This document shows positions 30,966 through 64,000 of a stretch of DNA of 64,000 bases, one piece after another. Position 1 is the first letter of the stretch; every line of letters starts with the position of its first letter. A model generated the notes under the pieces. The model was given only the letters and a program-made list of their open reading frames with translations, was not told the origin of the DNA and did no database searches. The stretch is from Tetmemena sp. SeJ-2015 (Eukaryota; Ciliophora; Spirotrichea; Sporadotrichida; Oxytrichidae), in contig JAJKFJ010022662.1 in assembly GCA_027382625.1 (NCBI GenBank), forward strand, positions 1-64,000. The letters run 5' to 3'. A program made the translations under genes and the position numbers.

Positions 30966-33900
30966 ATAAAATAATACTCAAGATTGAACGTGATAGCAGA
31001 ATCTCCATCAAACAATGAAAATTTAGAAGATTTAGTATCGAAGGAAACACCGACCTGATAAAAATATTTGAATTTGATAGCCATCATTTTATTCGTCAAC
31101 TATTTCTGGGAGTTAGTAAATAATTGAGAATCCTTGCATAGTTTCCTAGTTTTAAAGATTTGTTTTGAAATAGGGCGCATTTCTATTAACATCCAGATAT
31201 GAAAAGATAACTCTAAATAATCAATTGAATTTAAGTTAGTTAGTTATGTAAAAGATAAATTAACTCGATTTAAATTTTTAATCTTTGATTTAGCTATCAT
31301 CTTTCTTTCCAAAATATGAAATCCATATTGATGCCTAAAATTTTTAATTAATTTACTCTCTAAATATTTTGTTCATAGAGCTTTATAAATTTTATTTCAA
31401 TTTTTGATAAATGTAGCGATAATAAATATAAGAGTTGTGTAAATACTTTCACAAATAAGAGAATGGAATATTAAATTAAGATGACACTTAAAAGAAAATT
31501 AATCCTATTAATAAGAGTTTTTATTAAATGAGTATTTTTAATTTAATGTCAACGAAGGCCTTTGAAAATTTTGATTTTTCTCCTAGCACTTTTTGTCTAA
31601 TAAAATTTTAGCTTTGATGCCCTAAAAGATTTTTTTTAATACTTTGTTATAATAAACTGTTATTTTATAATTTTTCAAATATAGAATCCTCTTCAATTGT
31701 AAACTCATCAACAAAGCTGAAGTGCATAGTATAGCTCTATAGAAATAAGTTATAAATTAGGCAATCTCAATTAAGCAAGTTGCTGAGGAGGAAAAAATAA
31801 AATTAAATGATAAGGTGCAGATGTATGTGCTTACTTAGGAAAGCAAGGAATTCTAACTGATCCTTAAAATAAATAATGAGAGATCCTTGCTATTTGAAGC
31901 ATACCTAGGAGAGAGCACTAATTGTTAGGATAGAATAAAATATTAAGAAGTAGTTAAATTGTGTTTTCCTAAGGTCAATTGAATTATTTACTCCTATTGA
32001 GATTTCTTTTGGTTTTATTCCAGCGTTATAAACTGGAGTATATAAAACTGATATCGATTGCGGTATATTATCATAATTTTAAATATATTTTTAAATAAAA
32101 AATAGCATTTATAAAAGCTATAGTTGTGATTACATTCAAAATCCAATAATAAGAAAAAAAAAATAAGTAGGTAATTCTATTTATTATGTTTTTATTTTTA
32201 AAAGTTGGCCAAAATTAGTAAATGCTATATAAAATAAATTAGTTTCTACAAAATTAAAGTTATTATATATCAAATAGGCAAATTTGAAAGAAGTTTCAAA
32301 TACTGGTGCTTTTTCCAAATAGTTTGGCTTTTTTAAGCTTAAAAAGTTTTATTTACATTTTGACTCTCTCAAAAGTTTTCTTTAAGTTGAATATAAAGAA
32401 CATAAGTCCATAAATAAATAATTAAATGCTTAGTTATTTTAATAGAATAATTTAAGAAAGTTAGAAAGTAATTGTAATAGTGACTTATGGAAAACATCTC
32501 CTCGCTAAAAACAAAAAACTGAGAATTCTATCATACCTTTAGCCAATTATCAATAGTTTAAGGTAAACTAATAGAGGATTTTTCACCTGCGAATTTTTAC
32601 TTTTATTGGCGTTTCTAGAGATTATTTTTGACTTATTTATACACAGATTGATGAGAGTAAAATTTTTAATTTATATTAGCTTCTTAATTAAGCTCTTCAT
32701 AAATTACCAATATTTCTTTATTCTACCATTATACTTATCTTAATCTTAAAAATACTAAATAATATTTTAGGGTTTTTGTTGAAAACCATTGGTGAGTAAG
32801 AAGCTCCATTTAGCACATATAAGCATATATTTTTAAATTATGAACCGCTATAATTTACATTTCTTATAAGCATGAAAATGTGCCTCCATCATTATACGTT
32901 AGCATACCTAAATTTAAAGTGCCAGTATTTATAAAGCCAGCCATGGAGTATTGAAGCGCGCCATTGGCTATATAATGCTGCTTGTATAATTTAAAATAAA
33001 TATAAAATTGTTCTATTTGAATATGATTGGATAGGGAGATACCCCTGATATCAAATACAAGTAATCTGATTGAGTGGTTTACCCAGAGATTGTGAAAGGA
33101 TATTTAGGGTAAATTCTATACTTTTAATTTATTTATTTATTGCCTTAAATCTTAGCTTTTATTTAATTTATTATTATTTTATTCAAAAACTATTTAAATA
33201 GACTATATTAAGAGAAAATTTTCTACGAATTTATATATTTTTTAAGGCAATGTATTTAATTAATTTTACCTTCATTAAATAAATAATATAAAGGAAGGGT
33301 TAGAAATGCAGGAGGGGTTGAAATTCTTTGAAAATATAGCATCAATAAAAATAATAAAAAATGGATTTGCGGGATCTTTATTAACGAAGAAAATTTATAT
33401 AGCCACATTTACAAAAGTTATTCCTGCGCACTCAAATATCCCACCTGCTATAGTAGAATTAATTATTTTTTATAAAAAATAGTTCCATTTATATAATTAA
33501 TATACCAAGCTAGTAATTGAATATAGAAAGTAGTCAAGCATACTTTCAGAGGCCAGATAAAAATAATCTAGATCGTAGAAGAAAATGCCAATCTCACTTC
33601 AAATAAATTAAATTAATAAACAATTACATTAGATTATTCACTGCTTGTGCTCGTTCCAATCGTACCTAGACAACAAATTAAAAATAGTTTTTTTTTTTCC
33701 AACCACTTAAGTACGTCAAAGTCTCATCAACATCGAGCATTTATGGCCCCGTTTTTAGATGTTCATTGTTAGTGAAAATACCATATTTATTAAAAAAGTT
33801 GAGACTTCCAGTTTGTTTGTCCATGCTTAATAGCATAATAAATATTTTAATAGCACTATATTGGAATCGGTAGAAGTTGTATGGATGCCTGCTACATACA

Positions 33901-34049
33901 TTTATGATAATTTGGGTAGAAATTAAATAATCTGTCCAAAGGCATATTTAATTTTTAAGTGCTCAGTTTATTTAACCCACTATAATTGTTTATTACCAAG
34001 CAGATTTGGCTTTATATTTTAATAAGGGAGATATTTTATTAGTATATTA

Positions 34050-34500
34050 TAGTAGCGAGTGCATTAAAAAAGGCTACATGCGGCTTACTCCTCATGGAGC
34101 CGCAGATCTTCTAGTTACTGACTCGGTACTCTCTAGGCATGTTACTGCTGTAAATGCTTGGATCACTACCGATAGCAGCAAGAGGACTCGGGCGTCGCTA
34201 CTCGCAGCACAAGGCAACAGCAAGGAACCCCTGCCGCTTAAACCTTCCCAGACTGAGGGCGTAAGCTGCTGATTACTTGGGAGCCGAGGTGCCAAGACTG
34301 ATTTCCTAGCAGAGAGGTCTAAGATTGCTTGCACTCATGCTCGAGTAGTAGAACTGAGGATGTGCATATGAGCTTATCTCAGTAATATCATTTAACTCTA
34401 GTCCATTATTCCTTGCCAATCTCACCACTCATGTCCGCCTCTTATCCACATAATGTCCGGCGGCTGGAGTCTTGCCATATCTGCAAGATAATAAGCAATT
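34050..34500. other. GC-rich insertion of unknown origin in gene C
   Basis: A ~450-bp island with much higher GC than its surroundings, absent from the matching spacer in A, B and D. It has a GCGGCT/AGCCGC hairpin at 34080-34104. Both strands are open for about 80 codons (34006-34272 plus, 34092-34334 minus), which in GC-rich DNA is weak evidence for a gene. No motif, terminal repeat or known RNA was recognised. Confidence 0.45.
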
Positions 34501-38876: not shown

Positions 38877-39077
38877 ATATATGTTTTTATCAATAAAAAT
38901 ATCGATTTTCTGGCCTGAATTACTTTCCAAAATGTTTTATGATAAGCAAATTTTAGGAATTATAAAACTAGAGAGATGTTTTATTGTAATAATTTCTAAT
39001 TATGTGTAAAATTGTAAATAAAATAATTGATCTCGATTAAAATTTTTGTATTTATATCACCTTTATTTACTATATAA

Positions 39078-39490
39078 TATTGTAGTATTAGAGATGAATT
39101 TCAAAATTATAGATCAGCCCAGTGACGGTTGACAAGCGTTGGCGGAGAGCAGGGTGAACATCCTGATGGAGTGGCTCCGGATGCGTGGCAGTTAGAGATC
39201 AGGTGCTCTATTATAGGTGGGATTTAATTGAGAACAGAAATTAAATTAAATGTGCTTTATTAAACTTACTGATTACGCATTAATTAAATAAAACACCGAT
39301 TGGAAGTGATTAGTTCATTGGTTCATTGGTTCATTAGTTCACTGGTACACTGGTGCATCGGTACATTAAAGGAGTACTTTATGTCACACTCGAATTGTAC
39401 TAATGCACTACTAGATAAGGTGGAGTAATTAAATGCGGATTATAAATTAATAGCTGCACTGGGGAATAGGGTTTAGGATGTGTGTGAATA
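39078..39490. repeat. Left outer terminal inverted repeat of Rep element
   Basis: It pairs with 42812-43270, with the best match in the outer ~210 bp and in the segment around GGTTTAGGATGTGTGTGAAT. It includes the GC-rich segment 39119-39190. Confidence 0.82.
39311..39367. repeat. Subterminal GGTTCATT-type tandem repeat
   Basis: About seven degenerate 8-10 bp units (GGTTCATT, then GGTACACT and GGTGCATC) inside the left outer repeat. A decayed counterpart lies near 42980-43035 in the right arm. Confidence 0.65.
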
Positions 39491-39520
39491 TAACATTTAA
39501 GCAAATAGTGGTTGGAAAAT

Positions 39521-39877
39521 TCATAGTCCTTCAATGTGATGCGTGCTCTTCTGCCTCTACTTCATTTTCAATATGGGTCTCTGTGCCTGCTTCAGTCTCT
39601 GCCCCTACTGCGTAAGCTTTTCCGCCCTCCCGAAGAAGCCTGATCTCAAAAAACTTGCCAATGTTGATGAGAGGTGGGTGGTAGCAGCCAGAGAGAGGTC
39701 CGACTTATTGAGTAAATGGAAGAAGGCCAGCTCGTCTACTCGGAGTATGGCTGCATGTGTCTTAGCGCAGAGGGAGTCATGGCTTAGCTGTTGGTCCTTA
39801 GCATCAAGGTTGAGAACGAGGAATACGTTTGTAGTGTCGGTCTTGGCAGCCGGAGGCTGATTCATCATGGTCGTCAA
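39521..39877 (-). CDS. Unknown 118-residue protein of the Rep element
   Basis: The ATG is at 39877-39875 (MTTMMNQPPAAKTDTTNVFL). Two TAG codons read as Gln carry the frame to a TGA at 39521-39523, in a GC-rich stretch. It is rich in Leu, Ala and Lys in the middle, with a basic Gln-rich C-terminus. No motif is recognised. The opposite strand is also open in the standard code (39543-39860), so the strand choice is uncertain. Its position between the outer and inner inverted repeats suggests it belongs to the element. Confidence 0.35.
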
Positions 39878-39896
39878 TATAGATAGGAATTTAATA

Positions 39897-40090
39897 GATT
39901 AGAGGCGGTTGTAGAAATCTCAGATTAATTAGATCTATTTCAAACTACGCATTATTTAATTCCCTGACCACCTGACCAACGGTAAGATAGTAAGAAGTGA
40001 AAGGAAAGATTGAAAGATTTATTTCTGACCACCTGACCACTGGTCAGAAAATCAGGGTTGGGAAAGGTAAAATGGAAAGATTTTATAAAA
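39897..40090. repeat. Left inner inverted repeat, Rep cassette
   Basis: Pairs with 41690-41882. It contains two copies of CTGACCACCTGACCA (39964-39978 and 40025-40039). The second runs directly into the inverted TGGTCAG, making a short palindrome (40025-40047). Confidence 0.8.
40025..40047. promoter_or_regulatory. Possible Rep-binding palindrome/iterons
   Basis: CTGACCA repeats in direct and inverted orientation form a 23-bp hairpin-capable site in the arms flanking the Rep gene. Rep proteins of rolling-circle replicons bind short iterated sequences next to an origin hairpin. The assignment here is by position and symmetry only. Confidence 0.35.
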
Positions 40091-40107
40091 TAAACTTAAT
40101 TCTATAC

Positions 40108-41469
40108 TCACTGCAAATAGCTCAAGATAGTGCGGATAATTTACTTGGTACAGAACTGCGAGTTGAAAGCATACTCTTCAGTCTAGGTTGCTTTTGTATT
40201 TGCTCCATCCTCCTCCAGCTTGTCTTTTTGAGAGCTTGCCTCGCTCATGGTGTGATCATTTGTTTCGGTTTTGAGTGGCACTGTGTATTCCTGTTCTCTC
40301 TGCTCTGCCTCCAATCTTCTCAAGAAGTACTCTGCGAGTTGGAATGCAGTGAATGGAAAGGTCCCGTCGCCTCGGCCCATTGACTCTGTGAATTCTACCA
40401 GTTTGAGTCTTGTTTTGAAGGCTCTGAAGTCAATGTCACTGAGATCCTGGATGTGAAGAGTGTTGGAGCTGAGGATAGTCTGGCAGTTCTTGTAACCTCA
40501 TCACAGGCTGCTAGAACTTCGTATTCACGCAGAACCCATTCCCCTCGAAGAGTTGCTTCAGATCCTCCTGCAAGTCTGCCTGGAAAAGCATGCTGCGCTT
40601 CACCTCGTCTATTATTGCCAGCTGGGGCTCGAAGTGGAAATCACTGTTGTCCACTGCGAATTTATATCCGGCCAGCTTGATCTCCTCGCATCTGAAAATC
40701 TGCATCAAGTACGTGAGCAGTGTGGTCTTTCCTCTATTTGGCTCCCCGTACATCCACACTGCGTTTATCTTGCTATGGCATTTGCGGAAAATGACCTCAA
40801 AGAGGCTTTCCACGACCTCCAGGTACTGGGTCTCCACCAGGGATGCCTCAGAGAGTGGCTCGAATTGGAATTGGCTAACTTTGTTCATCTCAAAGTACTC
40901 CCTCAATCTTTGGTACTTGGTCTCAGGGATGTAAAGATAAGGCTGCATTTTCTTCTCCAATCTGCAGGTGGTCTAGAGGTTGGTGAAATTCTTGATAATA
41001 CTCTTCAGCATCGTTGAGTTCCCTTTGTGCTGCCAATAAAACTCCTCGACAGACCTCGCATTGCCTCCCCGAAAGTCCTGAATGAATGCCGATATCACGT
41101 CCCTGGATTTTTCATCGCTGATCTGGCCCTTCTCCTGCTGTCTTAGTAAAGGCTCGGGTCTAGCTTGTCGGAGCATACTTGAGAACAGAATGGGGCAACC
41201 TGCCAGCAGCTTGATTTGCAGATCGGACTTTAGCAGCCTTGAGATCTCTTTCACGCTGATTTGCTCTGCGTTGAACTCCAGTCTCCGAAAGAGCAAGTAT
41301 CCTTTACAGTCCTTCTGCTTGAAGAAGTTCTTAGTGGCCCCCTACTTATCTTTCTGGAGATGGAACCGAGAACCACAAAATGGTTATTAATGCAATGGTC
41401 GAAGGTTTCATTGATGAAGTGAAAACTTCGCTGAACAATCTCGTCGAAGTTAGCACCTTCGTCAATCAT
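40108..41469 (-). pseudogene. CRESS-type Rep with SF3 helicase, frame-shifted
   Basis: The Walker A motif GEPNRGKTT lies at about 40717-40747, Walker B LAIIDEV at 40599-40622 and a motif-C-like ILSSN at 40462-40479. Their order and spacing fit the superfamily-3 helicase of circular ssDNA virus-like Rep proteins. Upstream, GYLLFRRL aligns in position with the strand after the HUH endonuclease motif of Rep (HLQGY in relatives). Here DCK replaces HLQ, and no clear Tyr motif is seen. The middle frame stays open only with TAG as Gln (for example at 40511-40513 and 40973-40975). Frame changes occur near 41370 and near 40485. After the second, the C-terminus continues to a TGA at 40108-40110. It is thus probably inactive, unless the frame changes are removed as eliminated segments or bypassed during translation. 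Confidence 0.72.
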
Positions 41470-41689
41470 AAGTCCGCTATGTAGAAGTCAGTACTCGTGG
41501 CGCTCCACTCCTTGGACCAATTCGAGCTTGGAATGTTTCACGGCTCAATCCTCTTCGGAATGATTTTACTCAATGATAACTTACACTTGACATACTAGCT
41601 CTTGCGCCACCTCTGCAATATTCAATCTGCATCTAGAAATCGAGACCTTCTTCAATGAATTCTATAATGAAGAATGCTAGGATTAATAA

Positions 41690-41882
41690 AAATCTTTCCA
41701 TTTTACCTTTCCCACCTTGATTTTCTGACCAGGGTCAGGTGGTCAGAAATAAATCTTTCAATCTTTCCTTTCACTTCTTACCTATCAATTACCTGGTCAG
41801 CCCGTAGTCAGGGAAATTAAATATGCGTGTATTGAAATTGAGATTAACTTAATCTGAGCCTCTCTACAAACGCCTGCGACAA
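41690..41882. repeat. Right inner inverted repeat, Rep cassette
   Basis: Reverse complement of 39897-40090. It carries CTGACC/GGTCAG repeats at 41725-41746 and near 41792-41813. Confidence 0.8.
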
Positions 41883-42811
41883 TTAATTATGAGTTATCCA
41901 TCTATCAATATTGAAAAAATGGCATTGATTCCAATTCTCTTATCAGAATTACAGTTATGCTACTCAATCTGTTGCTTCAGACTGTGAGGCTAGTCTCTGC
42001 AGTGTATTCCCTTTAAAAGAACTGGCAAGTTTGAAAATTTGCAAATTAACTTAAGTTTATTGTCAATTTCTTAGCTAATTCACTTATGAATTCTTACAAC
42101 TTATCTCTGTAATGAGTTTAGGGAATTATCTTTGCTGTAGTATAATATTGAGAAAATCTAAGAAAAGTTTTTTGAAAAGTTTGAAAATTAAGAACGCTTC
42201 TAATCAACGTTTGACATTAAAAATTAGTGTAAAAAGCGATGTCCATGATCAGTAAAGACACTACATCTAGTAGTAAAAACTCCATCGCTAATTTAAAGTA
42301 CCAATCAGAACTTAAATAATTTATTAGATTATAAAGCAGAGCAGGCTCCCTAGCTGATTGAATTTAAAAATTAGTAGTTGGAGTGCTTGACCTATCATCA
42401 GAATGAGACTTATTACTCACTAACTGACATTGTTTTACCTAATCTTTAATGTCACACTTTAGCCAATTAATACGGCTTCTTAATTTCCAACTTTTCCACA
42501 AAACTATATTCTAGATCTACCATATTAACTAAGCAATAGATCAATATCCCTTAACTCTATACAAAGAAAGCTGTAAAATTATAAAGTATTAGCTAAGAAT
42601 GACAAAAATTAAGTCTTAAATGACAAAAATTTTGCAAGGACCTGCCAGTCTTTAAACGGCCTTAGACGAGAAACTAAGCTCAAATCAGCAAATACAGACT
42701 GAAATAGCAAAACTGATTGATAAAGAAAACACGCGAAATACAATGCCATCTGTTCAATATCTCAATCCTGAGCAGACCTCATTTTAAATATTGTAAATTA
42801 TAATATAAATC
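41883..42811. other. Right spacer of Rep element, no gene seen
   Basis: About 930 bp of AT-rich sequence between the inner and outer right repeats. No open frame beyond short ones, no repeat and no similarity to the left spacer is visible. Confidence 0.6.
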
Positions 42812-43270
42812 TATTCACACACATCCTAAACCCTGAGTTCCCCAGTCGCCGCAGCTATTAAATTTATAAATCCGCATTTAAGTACTCCACCTTACCTAGT
42901 TAACGTTGCATTAGTACAAATTAGGCTGCAATTTAGATACAATGTCGCAGTGTTGACACTAAAGCTGCCATCTTATACCGATGCACCAGTGTCACAGTGT
43001 AATGAACACCAACAAATGAGACAATGAACTAATTCACTGCCCAATCGCGTGTTTTTATTATAATTAATGCGTAACTCAGTAAGTTTAATAAAGCACATTT
43101 AATTTAATTTCTGTTCTCAATTAAATCCCACCTATAATAGAGCACCTGATCTCTAACTGCCACGCATCCGGAGCCACTCCATCAGGATGTTCACCCTGCT
43201 CTCCGCCAACGCTTGTCAACTGTCACTGGGCTGATCTATAATTTTGAAATTCATCTCTAATACTACAATA
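42812..43270. repeat. Right outer terminal inverted repeat of Rep element
   Basis: Reverse complement of 39078-39490 with small insertions and deletions, about 46 bp longer. Confidence 0.82.
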
Positions 43271-61900: not shown

Positions 61901-64000
61901 ATTTTGAAAAATTAGAAGACTTTGAGTCGAATGAAACAGAGATCTGATACAAATATTTTTTTATTTTGATAGCCATTATATTATTCATCAATAATATCTG
62001 GGAGTTAGTATATCAAAGAAAAGCCTTGCATAGTATCCTAGTTTTAAAGATTTAGTTTAAAATAAGGTGCATTTTTGTTATAGCTAAGAATTTAATAAAA
62101 AGAGAATTAAATAAATAAACATAAAATCCGTGGCAGTTGAAGTGTGGGATATTGGGTTAATTTTATTAGCATTCGATTAATCATAAAATTCTAAGCAACT
62201 TTGATCTTTGCAACTTCTTCGTAGGAGGTCTGTGGAAAGAGTTATCTAGGTCATAAGTTTTTTAACTTATAATTTGTTGGTTCGGAATTTGTGACTTCAA
62301 AAACCCTTCATAGGTACCTCCTATCATAATGGCAGTAGAATAGACTCATGTTAAAATTAAATAACTATCGAACAAGCCTCATATTGGGCTAACTACTTTA
62401 CAATTTAACTGACAAAAAATTACAATTCTTCATTTATTATTTTAACTTAATTCCGACTTTGATTTAAATTTTAACTATGAGATCGGGATAAGAAAAGATA
62501 ACTCTAAATAATGATTAAAATCATTTGTTAGAATATTTTTAATTTAATAAATATTTTAATCCTTTCTATATTTCAGCCAATAACTAGTTTTTAAAAATTA
62601 ATAAAGGGAGCTTTAAATTTCATTATATCTGAGAATTTAAAAGAAAATAATTCACAAATACATGCTCATTCTTGTTGGATTACCTTTGAATACTAGTTTA
62701 AATTAATAATTTTCGTTATAAATATATTAAAATGTCAGCCGCTGATGCCAGCCTCCCCATCTCTAAAAAAAACGCGATTTTACAGAGTTGGCACGGGAGG
62801 TCGACCCAGCCGGTTTGGCCACGGTGGCTCCAGCCTCGGCAGAGGCACTCAGCCACCACCCTCCACAGCCTCCAGCTTGCTGAGAGGAGCTGCAAGCTCC
62901 AAGGATCCTCGGCCATCTTAGCTCTCACCTCGGCAAGTCCGAGAGACCTCACCAAGGTCAGTGAGAGAGCCGAGTCTTCAGCAAGCTGGAGTGCGTGGAG
63001 GGTGGTGCCGAGTGCCTCTGCGAGGCTGGAGCCACGTGGCCAAACCGGCTGGGTCGACCTCCGTGCCAACTCTGTAAATGCGTTTTTTTAGAGATGTGAG
63101 GCTGGCATCAGCGGCTGACATTTTAATATATTTATAACGAAAATTATTATTAAATTAGAAAGTTAAAATTCAGGACGCACACGACCGGCACTAGGCACCG
63201 GTCGCCCTTTCCCTGAAGGCTTTCTGGTTTGGTAATCCATTGGCTGGTGGTGAGTGCTTAAAATGAGGCAAGGGATAATGGCAGCCGAAGCCCTGGGGAA
63301 GGTGGTTGAGCTGCTCACTGGAGAGATAATCAAAGGTGAGTGGTTCCCACTCACCTTCCTAATCCTGTTAGGCGTGGAGGGACGAGATCTATGGGCAAAC
63401 ACTCAGTCATGCAGCTGGACAGCGAAGCCAGACGCTACGGAGCAGCGACTTGCTCTCGGTCCGATGCTACCGGATTTTTTTTCTCCTTTCAGGTTTTTTT
63501 GGATGGTCTGCAGAAGCCGGGGGCTTCTGCTCAGAGTGTGAGGTGGCGGGGGTGCCACGTGTTTAATATCCCTATTCGGCTGGTAGGTTTGTGTGCGTCA
63601 GATAAGTGCGTCACAGCAATATCATTGACGTCACGGCCTATCTTATTTATGCCGGGGGCCCTTTAATTCCCTTTAATTATTATTAATTATTATAACGAAA
63701 ATTATTAATTTAAACTAGTATTCAAAGGTAATCCAACAAGAATGAGCATGTATTTGTGAATTATTTTCTTTTAAATTCTCAGATCTAATATTGTTTTACA
63801 ATTGGAACTCCAATTCTGTTGCTAATTTTTTATAATTATAAGAAATTTACTTCAAAATTTGAAACTTAATGACTAGATTCTTTCGCAATTAATACGATTT
63901 TTTGCAATAATATAAACATTACTTTTATAACGCAAGCCTTGGATCATAGAGTAAAGTTCTTTCTTTATTATAAAAGATGAAATTAATTAAGAATTAAGCA
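58942..64000 (-). CDS. Gene E: 3' part of a fifth paralog (5' end outside window)
   Basis: The stop is TGA at 58942-58944, after the tail LIDLPYYIETKPKEKH...QIKLKNT, which is the same tail type as B and C. Membrane exons follow upwards: last TM near 59580-59740, a middle membrane exon at 60260-60566, TM4 at 60598-60706, and TM3 at 60738-60946 with YEPLNPFFDFMNYSSTNLIE. TM2 is near 61020-61150 and TM1 near 61180-61420. Above ~62080 the gene spacer is filled by an R1 repeat and a GC-rich nested palindrome element, and coding blocks are not recognised there. The frame is open only when TAA/TAG are read as Gln. Confidence 0.58.
59748..59761 (-). other. IES-2 of gene E (14 nt, pointer TATT)
   Basis: Same site, and the shortest of the four copies. 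Deletion gives FLLLTSLDID. Confidence 0.7.
60567..60597 (-). other. 31-nt intron 2, gene E
   Basis: GTAAGAATTC...ACTATAG at the position equivalent to gene C intron 2. Confidence 0.72.
60707..60737 (-). other. 31-nt intron 1, gene E
   Basis: The intron runs GTAAGTTTCC...TTTTTAG at the conserved position. Confidence 0.78.
62078..62480 (+). repeat. R1 repeat copy, gene E
   Basis: It starts TTATAGCTAAGAATTTAATA; the middle is diverged, and the CTATCGAACAAGCCTCAT segment is retained. Confidence 0.65.
62722..63150. repeat. GC-rich foldback palindrome
   Basis: Arms of about 180 bp face each other around a centre near 62925. The outer part starts TATATTAAAATGTCAGCCGC, and both arms carry GGTCGACCCAGCCGGTTTGG or its complement. 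The DNA or any transcript could form a very long hairpin. Confidence 0.78.
63160..63680. other. GC-rich unique segment of the composite element
   Basis: About 520 bp containing CGACCGGCACTAGG...CACCGGTCG and GTGAGTGGTTCCCACTCAC hairpins, a short GACGTCACGG stretch and overlapping frames of 79-108 codons on both strands. No protein or RNA family was recognised. Confidence 0.4.

Follow-up and report, generated by a model that had tools for sequence, protein, structure and literature searches.

What kind of mobile element carries a virus-like helicase gene between long inverted repeats in the germline DNA of a ciliate, and by what machinery might it move? This question is raised by positions 39,078 to 43,270 of a 64,000-nucleotide stretch of DNA from Tetmemena sp. 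SeJ-2015 (GenBank assembly GCA_027382625.1, contig JAJKFJ010022662.1, positions 1 to 64,000), the whole of which is referred to here as the window. An earlier note on this DNA had interpreted the region as one element of about 4.2 kb, with two nested sets of inverted repeats and a Rep gene of the CRESS type (circular Rep-encoding single-stranded DNA viruses). The present analysis indicates that the window very probably holds a decayed member of a family of small transposons with terminal inverted repeats (TIRs) in the ciliate germline. The preferred explanation as a whole, which combines this family identity with nesting in a deletion derivative and with a replicating helicase served by an external nuclease, is regarded as probable, with more reserve.

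A multicopy family with linked ends and empty sites

The host assembly (146 Mb in 5,213 contigs) was searched with the helicase piece of the window and with a distant family member, for which 126 matches (the query itself included) and 104 matches were listed, respectively. After both sets were merged, 144 distinct helicase gene loci were recognized among the matches listed, a figure to be taken neither as a firm minimum nor as a complete tally; merging used 153 of the 230 listed rows, the omitted rows being overlapping or further pieces of included loci. Some contigs look duplicated: C1787 and C3586 carry helicase matches at identical coordinates, which suggests duplicated or allelic contigs, so that copy counts are slightly inflated. 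Inverted repeats of 85-417 bp accompany the gene in 24 of the 25 related loci examined (L015 and L047 being one place), the exception being L073. The copies examined span 1.7-2.3 kb, apart from L076 (3.0 kb), and contain one recognized gene each, which in 11 loci forms a frame of 440-492 amino acids from a chosen ATG to TGA. Such an open frame is not proof of an intact gene; in both L072 and L074, one stretch diverges from relatives as if out of frame.

Most element ends start at TA, in a register set by eye, with tips such as TATTCTAA, TATTGTAG and TATAGATAGG; the end types of the family include TATTCTAACAATC and TATAGATAGG. With at most one mismatch allowed, the terminal motif TATTCTAACAATCARGG occurs 320 times, compared with 5 for its reversed control, and 58 of the 100 places listed form 29 inverted pairs. 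A helicase match is enclosed by 17 of the 21 listed pairs that measure at least 1.9 kb and by none of the eight shorter ones.

To look for empty sites, the flanks of three elements (L016, L024 and L042) were fused at a single TA, with the element left out, and contiguous matches were found elsewhere for all three: at C221 (91%) and C2475 (80%) for L016, at C1168 (95%) for L024, and at C821 (90%), C2315 (89%) and C3386 (86%) for L042. At C1168, the only site of the three read base by base, a 30-base junction contains a single TA, with one mismatch, which shows the L024 element to be flanked by a duplicated TA. For this purpose, the insertion in the window itself was left aside because an adjoining miniature inverted-repeat transposable element (MITE) blurs the junction. 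Genome matches, inverted pairs and empty sites together establish a multicopy element and bear out the long TIRs described in the earlier note; neither of the contrary outcomes that it had named, a unique local rearrangement or a different P-loop family, turned up.

Nested architecture of the window locus

Both sets of repeats lie where they had been placed. The outer repeats are 99% identical over 195 nt (39078-39272 against 43076-43270), and the pairing extends at 84% to the full left TIR at 39078-39490 (plus strand), which begins with TATTGTAG and has TA as its tip, and the full right TIR at 42812-43270 (minus strand). The inner repeats show 86% identity between 39903-40084 and 41689-41875, including perfect stretches of 49 nt and 26 nt. 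In the host genome, the outer left repeat has 41 matches, 30 of which form 15 inverted pairs (the window's own included), and the inner stretch has 113 matches, itself included.

Since both repeat sets are genuine, a single 4.2-kb transposon with two nested repeat sets might be supposed, but this reading is practically untenable. Contig C2863 (locus L002) carries an insert-free relative of the outer element, in which the counterparts of window positions 39076-39879 (95.6% identity) and 42756-43270 (85.1%) are contiguous at base 1177. As the outer parts are joined directly there, the 4.2 kb must be a nest of three elements, and the single-element candidate was rejected; the inner and MITE parts are, in addition, found elsewhere without the outer part. 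What stands of the earlier description is thus the two repeat sets, not the one element.

The insert is made up of a decayed helicase element of about 2.03 kb and an unrelated palindromic MITE. The helicase element occupies 39878-41909 on the minus strand, with TATAGATAGG as its left tip and a decayed right end whose border is approximate. Its inverted repeats lie at 39878-40089 (left, plus strand, with iteron-like CTGACCA repeats) and 41683-41909 (right, minus strand, outer border approximate). The MITE, at about 41907-42760 with no strand assigned, has arms at 41908-42234 and 42433-42760 that are 71% alike, and its ends read TATTGAA...TTCAATA; this stretch has 106 genome matches, itself included, many of which span only the middle ~0.36 kb. 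The outer element, roughly 1.3 kb long, is a derivative shortened by an internal deletion and a distant relative of the inner element within the same family. In comparison with L075, a member of the family that has a helicase gene itself, 252-720 and 1761-1954 are kept and about 1.04 kb between them is absent, which marks the deletion; the open reading frame (ORF) at 39521-39877 (minus strand) is thus a remnant of the outer element's helicase gene, with its first and last parts fused by the deletion.

The helicase gene, its protein and its genetic code

The main open stretch of the helicase gene in the window, recognized from ORFs, motifs and genome matches, lies at 40436-41395 (minus strand) and encodes 319 amino acids, with three TAG and two TAA codons inside; a C-terminal stretch containing motif C lies in another frame at 40108-40500 (minus strand, approximate borders). 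The motifs follow one another on the minus strand as previously reported, with Walker A at 40747-40721, Walker B at 40621-40601 and ILSSN at 40476-40462. The ILSSN frame differs from that of Walker A and B, and the N-terminal part is interrupted too, which marks the window copy as a pseudogene. Structure prediction for the 319-residue piece gave a mean pLDDT (predicted local distance difference test) of 34. As this piece falls below all Pfam cut-offs, its family assignment rests on its relatives.

In the alignment of open copies, Walker A, Walker B and motif C are all kept. Among 10 open proteins scanned against Pfam, DUF5906 exceeds its cut-off in six and PPV_E1_C in two, and Parvo_NS1 does so in two, with a third exactly at the cut-off; L015 and L011 pass the cut-offs of both PPV_E1_C and Parvo_NS1. 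These profiles substantiate the superfamily 3 (SF3) type that had been claimed for the helicase. NPHP3_N, a P-loop family unrelated to SF3, is at its Pfam cut-off in L072. In a PHROG scan of six proteins, the helicase part scored against families of phage DNA primases (best E 3.4e-07); L015 also gave a weak match to a DNA transposition protein (E 0.0013), which likewise falls on the P-loop region. The PDB yielded weak sequence matches, to a primase (E 0.0036) and to the NS1 chain 9kbj (E 0.026). Judged from these comparisons of sequence, the family protein is an SF3 helicase with an N-terminal domain.

The proposed CRESS-type Rep found no support in this analysis. The RNA_helicase profile, which is linked with CRESS-virus Reps in passages of one study (PMC3198968), is listed for eight of the 10 proteins, always below the cut-off. 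Viral_Rep and Gemini_AL1 gave no match in Pfam scans of the family proteins, and neither the HUH histidines nor the catalytic Tyr is conserved in the 11 open copies, the best-kept Tyr being Phe in two of them; the family name CRESS was rejected on these grounds. No HUH, transposase or DDE profile and no Pif1 match was found for the 10 proteins, and no capsid profile or NS1 nuclease domain was seen in the Pfam scans. Within the first ~125 residues of the 11 open copies (L069 numbering), the best-kept columns are Phe20, 21 and 53, Ser/Thr75, Lys76, Tyr/Phe78, Phe79, Gly86, Leu90 and Gly120; no column there has an acid in at least 10 of the 11 copies or His in at least six, and the first acid common to all copies is Glu223, which precedes the helicase.

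Subfamilies are only about 24% identical. Ratios of nonsynonymous to synonymous substitution (dN/dS) were 0.09, 0.12, 0.14 and 0.18 in four of five measurable pairs and 0.37 in the youngest; these five come from the nine of 55 pairs with more than 50% identity, four of which were saturated, and three of the five have members in common. The low values in most measurable pairs indicate that the helicase gene is kept there by purifying selection. Searches for outside relatives, all with poor reach for distant or eukaryotic ones, gave none: a protein search with the family alignment found no relative at E 1e-3 among the best 7,994 candidates, one with a single open copy found none at E 1 among 7,996 candidates, 13 pattern matches in IMG/VR viral contigs included none that was confirmed, and plasmid records and 50,697 phage records contained no relative.

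A ciliate telomerase RNA was detected in the host assembly at 66.1 bits (cut-off 52) and in none of 14 control genomes, so the host is a ciliate, as the note had supposed. The helicase frames contain TAG and TAA, and TGA ends all 11 open ones. Across these copies, Gln is found opposite TAA (45 codons) at 42 of 382 aligned places and opposite TAG (79 codons) at 78 of 663, compared with 4.9% in the background; Gln does not exceed Lys or Glu in frequency at these places, and it stands at 456 of 2,186 places in the CAA/CAG control. Decoding of TAA and TAG as Gln fits these counts, without proof. In-frame TAG and TAA, together with Gln at more than twice background, suggest that the gene has long resided under a ciliate-type code, in agreement with the earlier proposal.

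Iteron-like repeats and exchange of ends

The inverted-repeat arms contain 7-mers clustered at 8-bp spacing, namely CTGACCA (four times), GTTCATT (three), TTGGAAC (four) and GTACATT (five), and the 8-bp repeat types of the family are TTGGAACA, CTGACCAC and GTACATTC. In the window, three iteron-like GTTCATT copies with an 8-bp period lie in the outer repeat at 39313-39335 (plus strand; 1 of 200 shuffles scored as high), and CTGACCA occurs in the inner left repeat at 39964, 39972, 40025 and 40033 (0 of 200). When 17 arms were tested, 0-3 of 200 shuffles scored as high in 10 of them, related arms not being independent.

At 15 of 24 loci, the two arms of a copy agree to 96.7-100%. Those of L074 and L072 are 100% and 99.4% alike within the copy, compared with about 79% between the two copies, whose genes have a dS of 1.24. 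Over 1.9 kb, L018 and L019 share 96.9% identity, but the outermost ~70 bp of one are unrelated to those of the other at either end, and L042 and L040 (87.3% identical) likewise have unrelated outermost sequence at both ends. As both tips differ in each pair, both ends change together, which may reflect the copying of one arm from the other via a foldback intermediate or gene conversion. This symmetric swap of end cassettes offers a handle on how two inverted repeats stay alike.

Proposed mechanism and alternative explanations

A mechanism is put forward tentatively in which an origin-binding helicase copies the element and an external nuclease cuts and joins it at TA. The N-terminal domain would bind the 8-bp iterons in both long inverted repeats, and the SF3 ring would open the element and copy it. 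The two arms might be homogenized through a foldback or gene-conversion intermediate, and an outside nuclease, either a host excisase that cuts internal eliminated sequences (IESs) at TA or a Tc1/mariner transposase, could supply cutting and joining. Several observations weigh against this picture. The N-terminal ~145 residues match nothing relevant by profile in the 10 proteins; iterons are weak (5-9 of 200 shuffles) in two of the 17 arms and not significant in five; arms are only 78-93% alike in nine of the 24 loci, as expected for aged copies and with no sign of homogenization; and other transposons, too, have long inverted repeats whose likeness is maintained by gene conversion. The bond between gene and ends is likewise imperfect, as four of the 21 full-length listed end pairs enclose no helicase match and 42 of the 100 listed ends have no partner. 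Only 150 of 921 DDE_3 candidates were scored, so a transposon with the same ends could be missed.

The lack of a recognized nuclease could be accounted for if the N-terminal domain were itself a much diverged one, HUH-derived or new, so that an autonomous element with one protein cuts, copies and joins. One recognized gene per element, purifying selection in most measurable pairs and linkage of the gene to the ends in 17 of the 21 full-length listed pairs would all suit such an element; by eye, hydrophobic stretches follow one another in the first ~125 residues much as in a Rep or origin-binding domain. The scarcity of conserved acids and histidines in that region, the replacement of its best-kept Tyr by Phe and the failure of Rep, HUH and transposase profiles speak against it, although at about 24% identity between subfamilies a shifted active site could escape notice in the alignment; on this evidence a hidden nuclease is possible but rather doubtful. 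It is unlikely that the helicase takes no part in transposition and serves, for example, extrachromosomal upkeep while Tc1/mariner-type transposases move the elements. The TA duplication is that of Tc1/mariner, DDE_3 genes are plentiful (at least 150 over the cut-off) and gene-less derivatives occur; however, none of the DDE_3 matches listed lies inside any of the 29 listed end pairs (the two share only contigs C2045 and C3189, with neither match inside a pair), and the helicase goes with related ends even in subfamilies as divergent as those described above. If the copies were what is left of an endogenized virus whose linear genome ended in inverted repeats, the E1/NS1-like helicase and the long repeats would be explained, but the short spans leave little room beyond the helicase gene, no capsid profile was seen in them, and no relative was confirmed among the viral contigs and phage records searched, which makes a viral origin of this kind quite improbable.

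If the helicase-replicator mechanism is taken to its full extent, the family would form a new class of eukaryotic transposon, TIR-ended and TA-inserting, whose sole protein is a nuclease-free origin-binding SF3 helicase and whose members are small self-copying replicons cut and joined by the ciliate excisase; such a class is offered as a speculative possibility. Should the helicase work without a nuclease of its own, transposition would be the joint work of a selfish replicator and a genome-editing enzyme of the host, an arrangement that is testable in ciliates.

Other features of the window and neighbouring genes

The GC content of the window is mostly 23-32%, with GC-rich islands with odd reading frames at 62001-64000 (38% in the last 2 kb) and 33322-34269, where long ORFs have GC fractions of 0.43 and 0.33. 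Ten long ORFs of the window gave no Pfam match at E 0.001. Elsewhere in the assembly, L024:3423-3869, beside the L024 helicase element, resembles by eye a hypoxanthine phosphoribosyltransferase with an in-frame TAG, and a nitrilase gene (PF00795) at L070:2544-3101 adjoins a helicase element. Among the relatives listed for this nitrilase, those with names are bacterial, and an unnamed database protein shares 99% identity with it; the gene may have been transferred from bacteria or may lie on a foreign contig.

Comparison with known systems

Transposons based on replication initiators include the Helitrons and Replitrons, both with an active HUH nuclease; Helitrons have no TIRs and no target-site duplication, and combine HUH with a Pif1 helicase. 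The ciliate family resembles them in being a transposon with a replication-initiator-type protein, and differs from both in having no conserved HUH motif and from Helitrons in its TIRs, its TA duplication, its SF3 profiles and the absence of a Pif1 match. With Tc1/mariner elements it shares the TA duplication, established to the base at one site, whereas their DDE transposase was not found in the 10 proteins. To our knowledge, virus-like replication initiators within transposons have seldom been described, and here the only recognized gene of a large family that inserts at TA and is under selection is of this kind.

Parvovirus-like and geminivirus-like transposons of animals and a fungus were described by Liu et al. 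2011 (PMC3198968), the passages of which considered here provide the closest known counterparts. DENSOV_HM of Hydra and PIVE of a planarian are genome-integrated repeats encoding an NS1/E1-type helicase; in the legend of Figure 5, the Parvo_NS1 and PPV_E1_C domains are named and TIRs are indicated, and an acorn-worm element additionally encodes a coat protein. Compared by description only, the ciliate elements are like DENSOV_HM and PIVE in their helicase type and TIRs, and unlike these elements of animal hosts in their ciliate code, single recognized gene, lack of a capsid and TA duplication. By that description, parvovirus/papillomavirus-like transposons of Hydra and planarians appear to be the nearest relatives in kind, and since elements with PPV_E1_C and TIRs were reported there, the ciliate family would not be wholly new, unless its helicase proves nuclease-free and host-dependent. 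The geminivirus-like transposon of Tuber melanosporum (PMC3198968) also places a Rep-like gene in a TIR-bounded repeat, but is described with 37-bp TIRs, no obvious target-site duplication and two transposase ORFs, in contrast to the 0.1-0.4-kb TIRs, TA duplication and lack of a detected transposase here.

For ciliates, no report of SF3-coding transposons was recognized from titles and abstract openings, in a search without most subscription journals, and the passages searched of PMC8354472, PMC9942856, PMC5182062 and PMC9797194 do not mention them. In passages on mobile IESs of Paramecium and Blepharisma (PMC8354472, PMC9942856), those autonomous members that were identified are linked with transposases or a tyrosine recombinase, and for many families no partner is named. 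The present elements resemble the Tc1/mariner and MITE-like mobile IESs of these ciliates as TA-bounded germline repeats with gene-less derivatives, and differ in that the gene within their ends is an SF3 helicase. If the proposed mechanism is true, this family could supply the autonomous partners that some orphan MITE-like elements of ciliate germlines lack.

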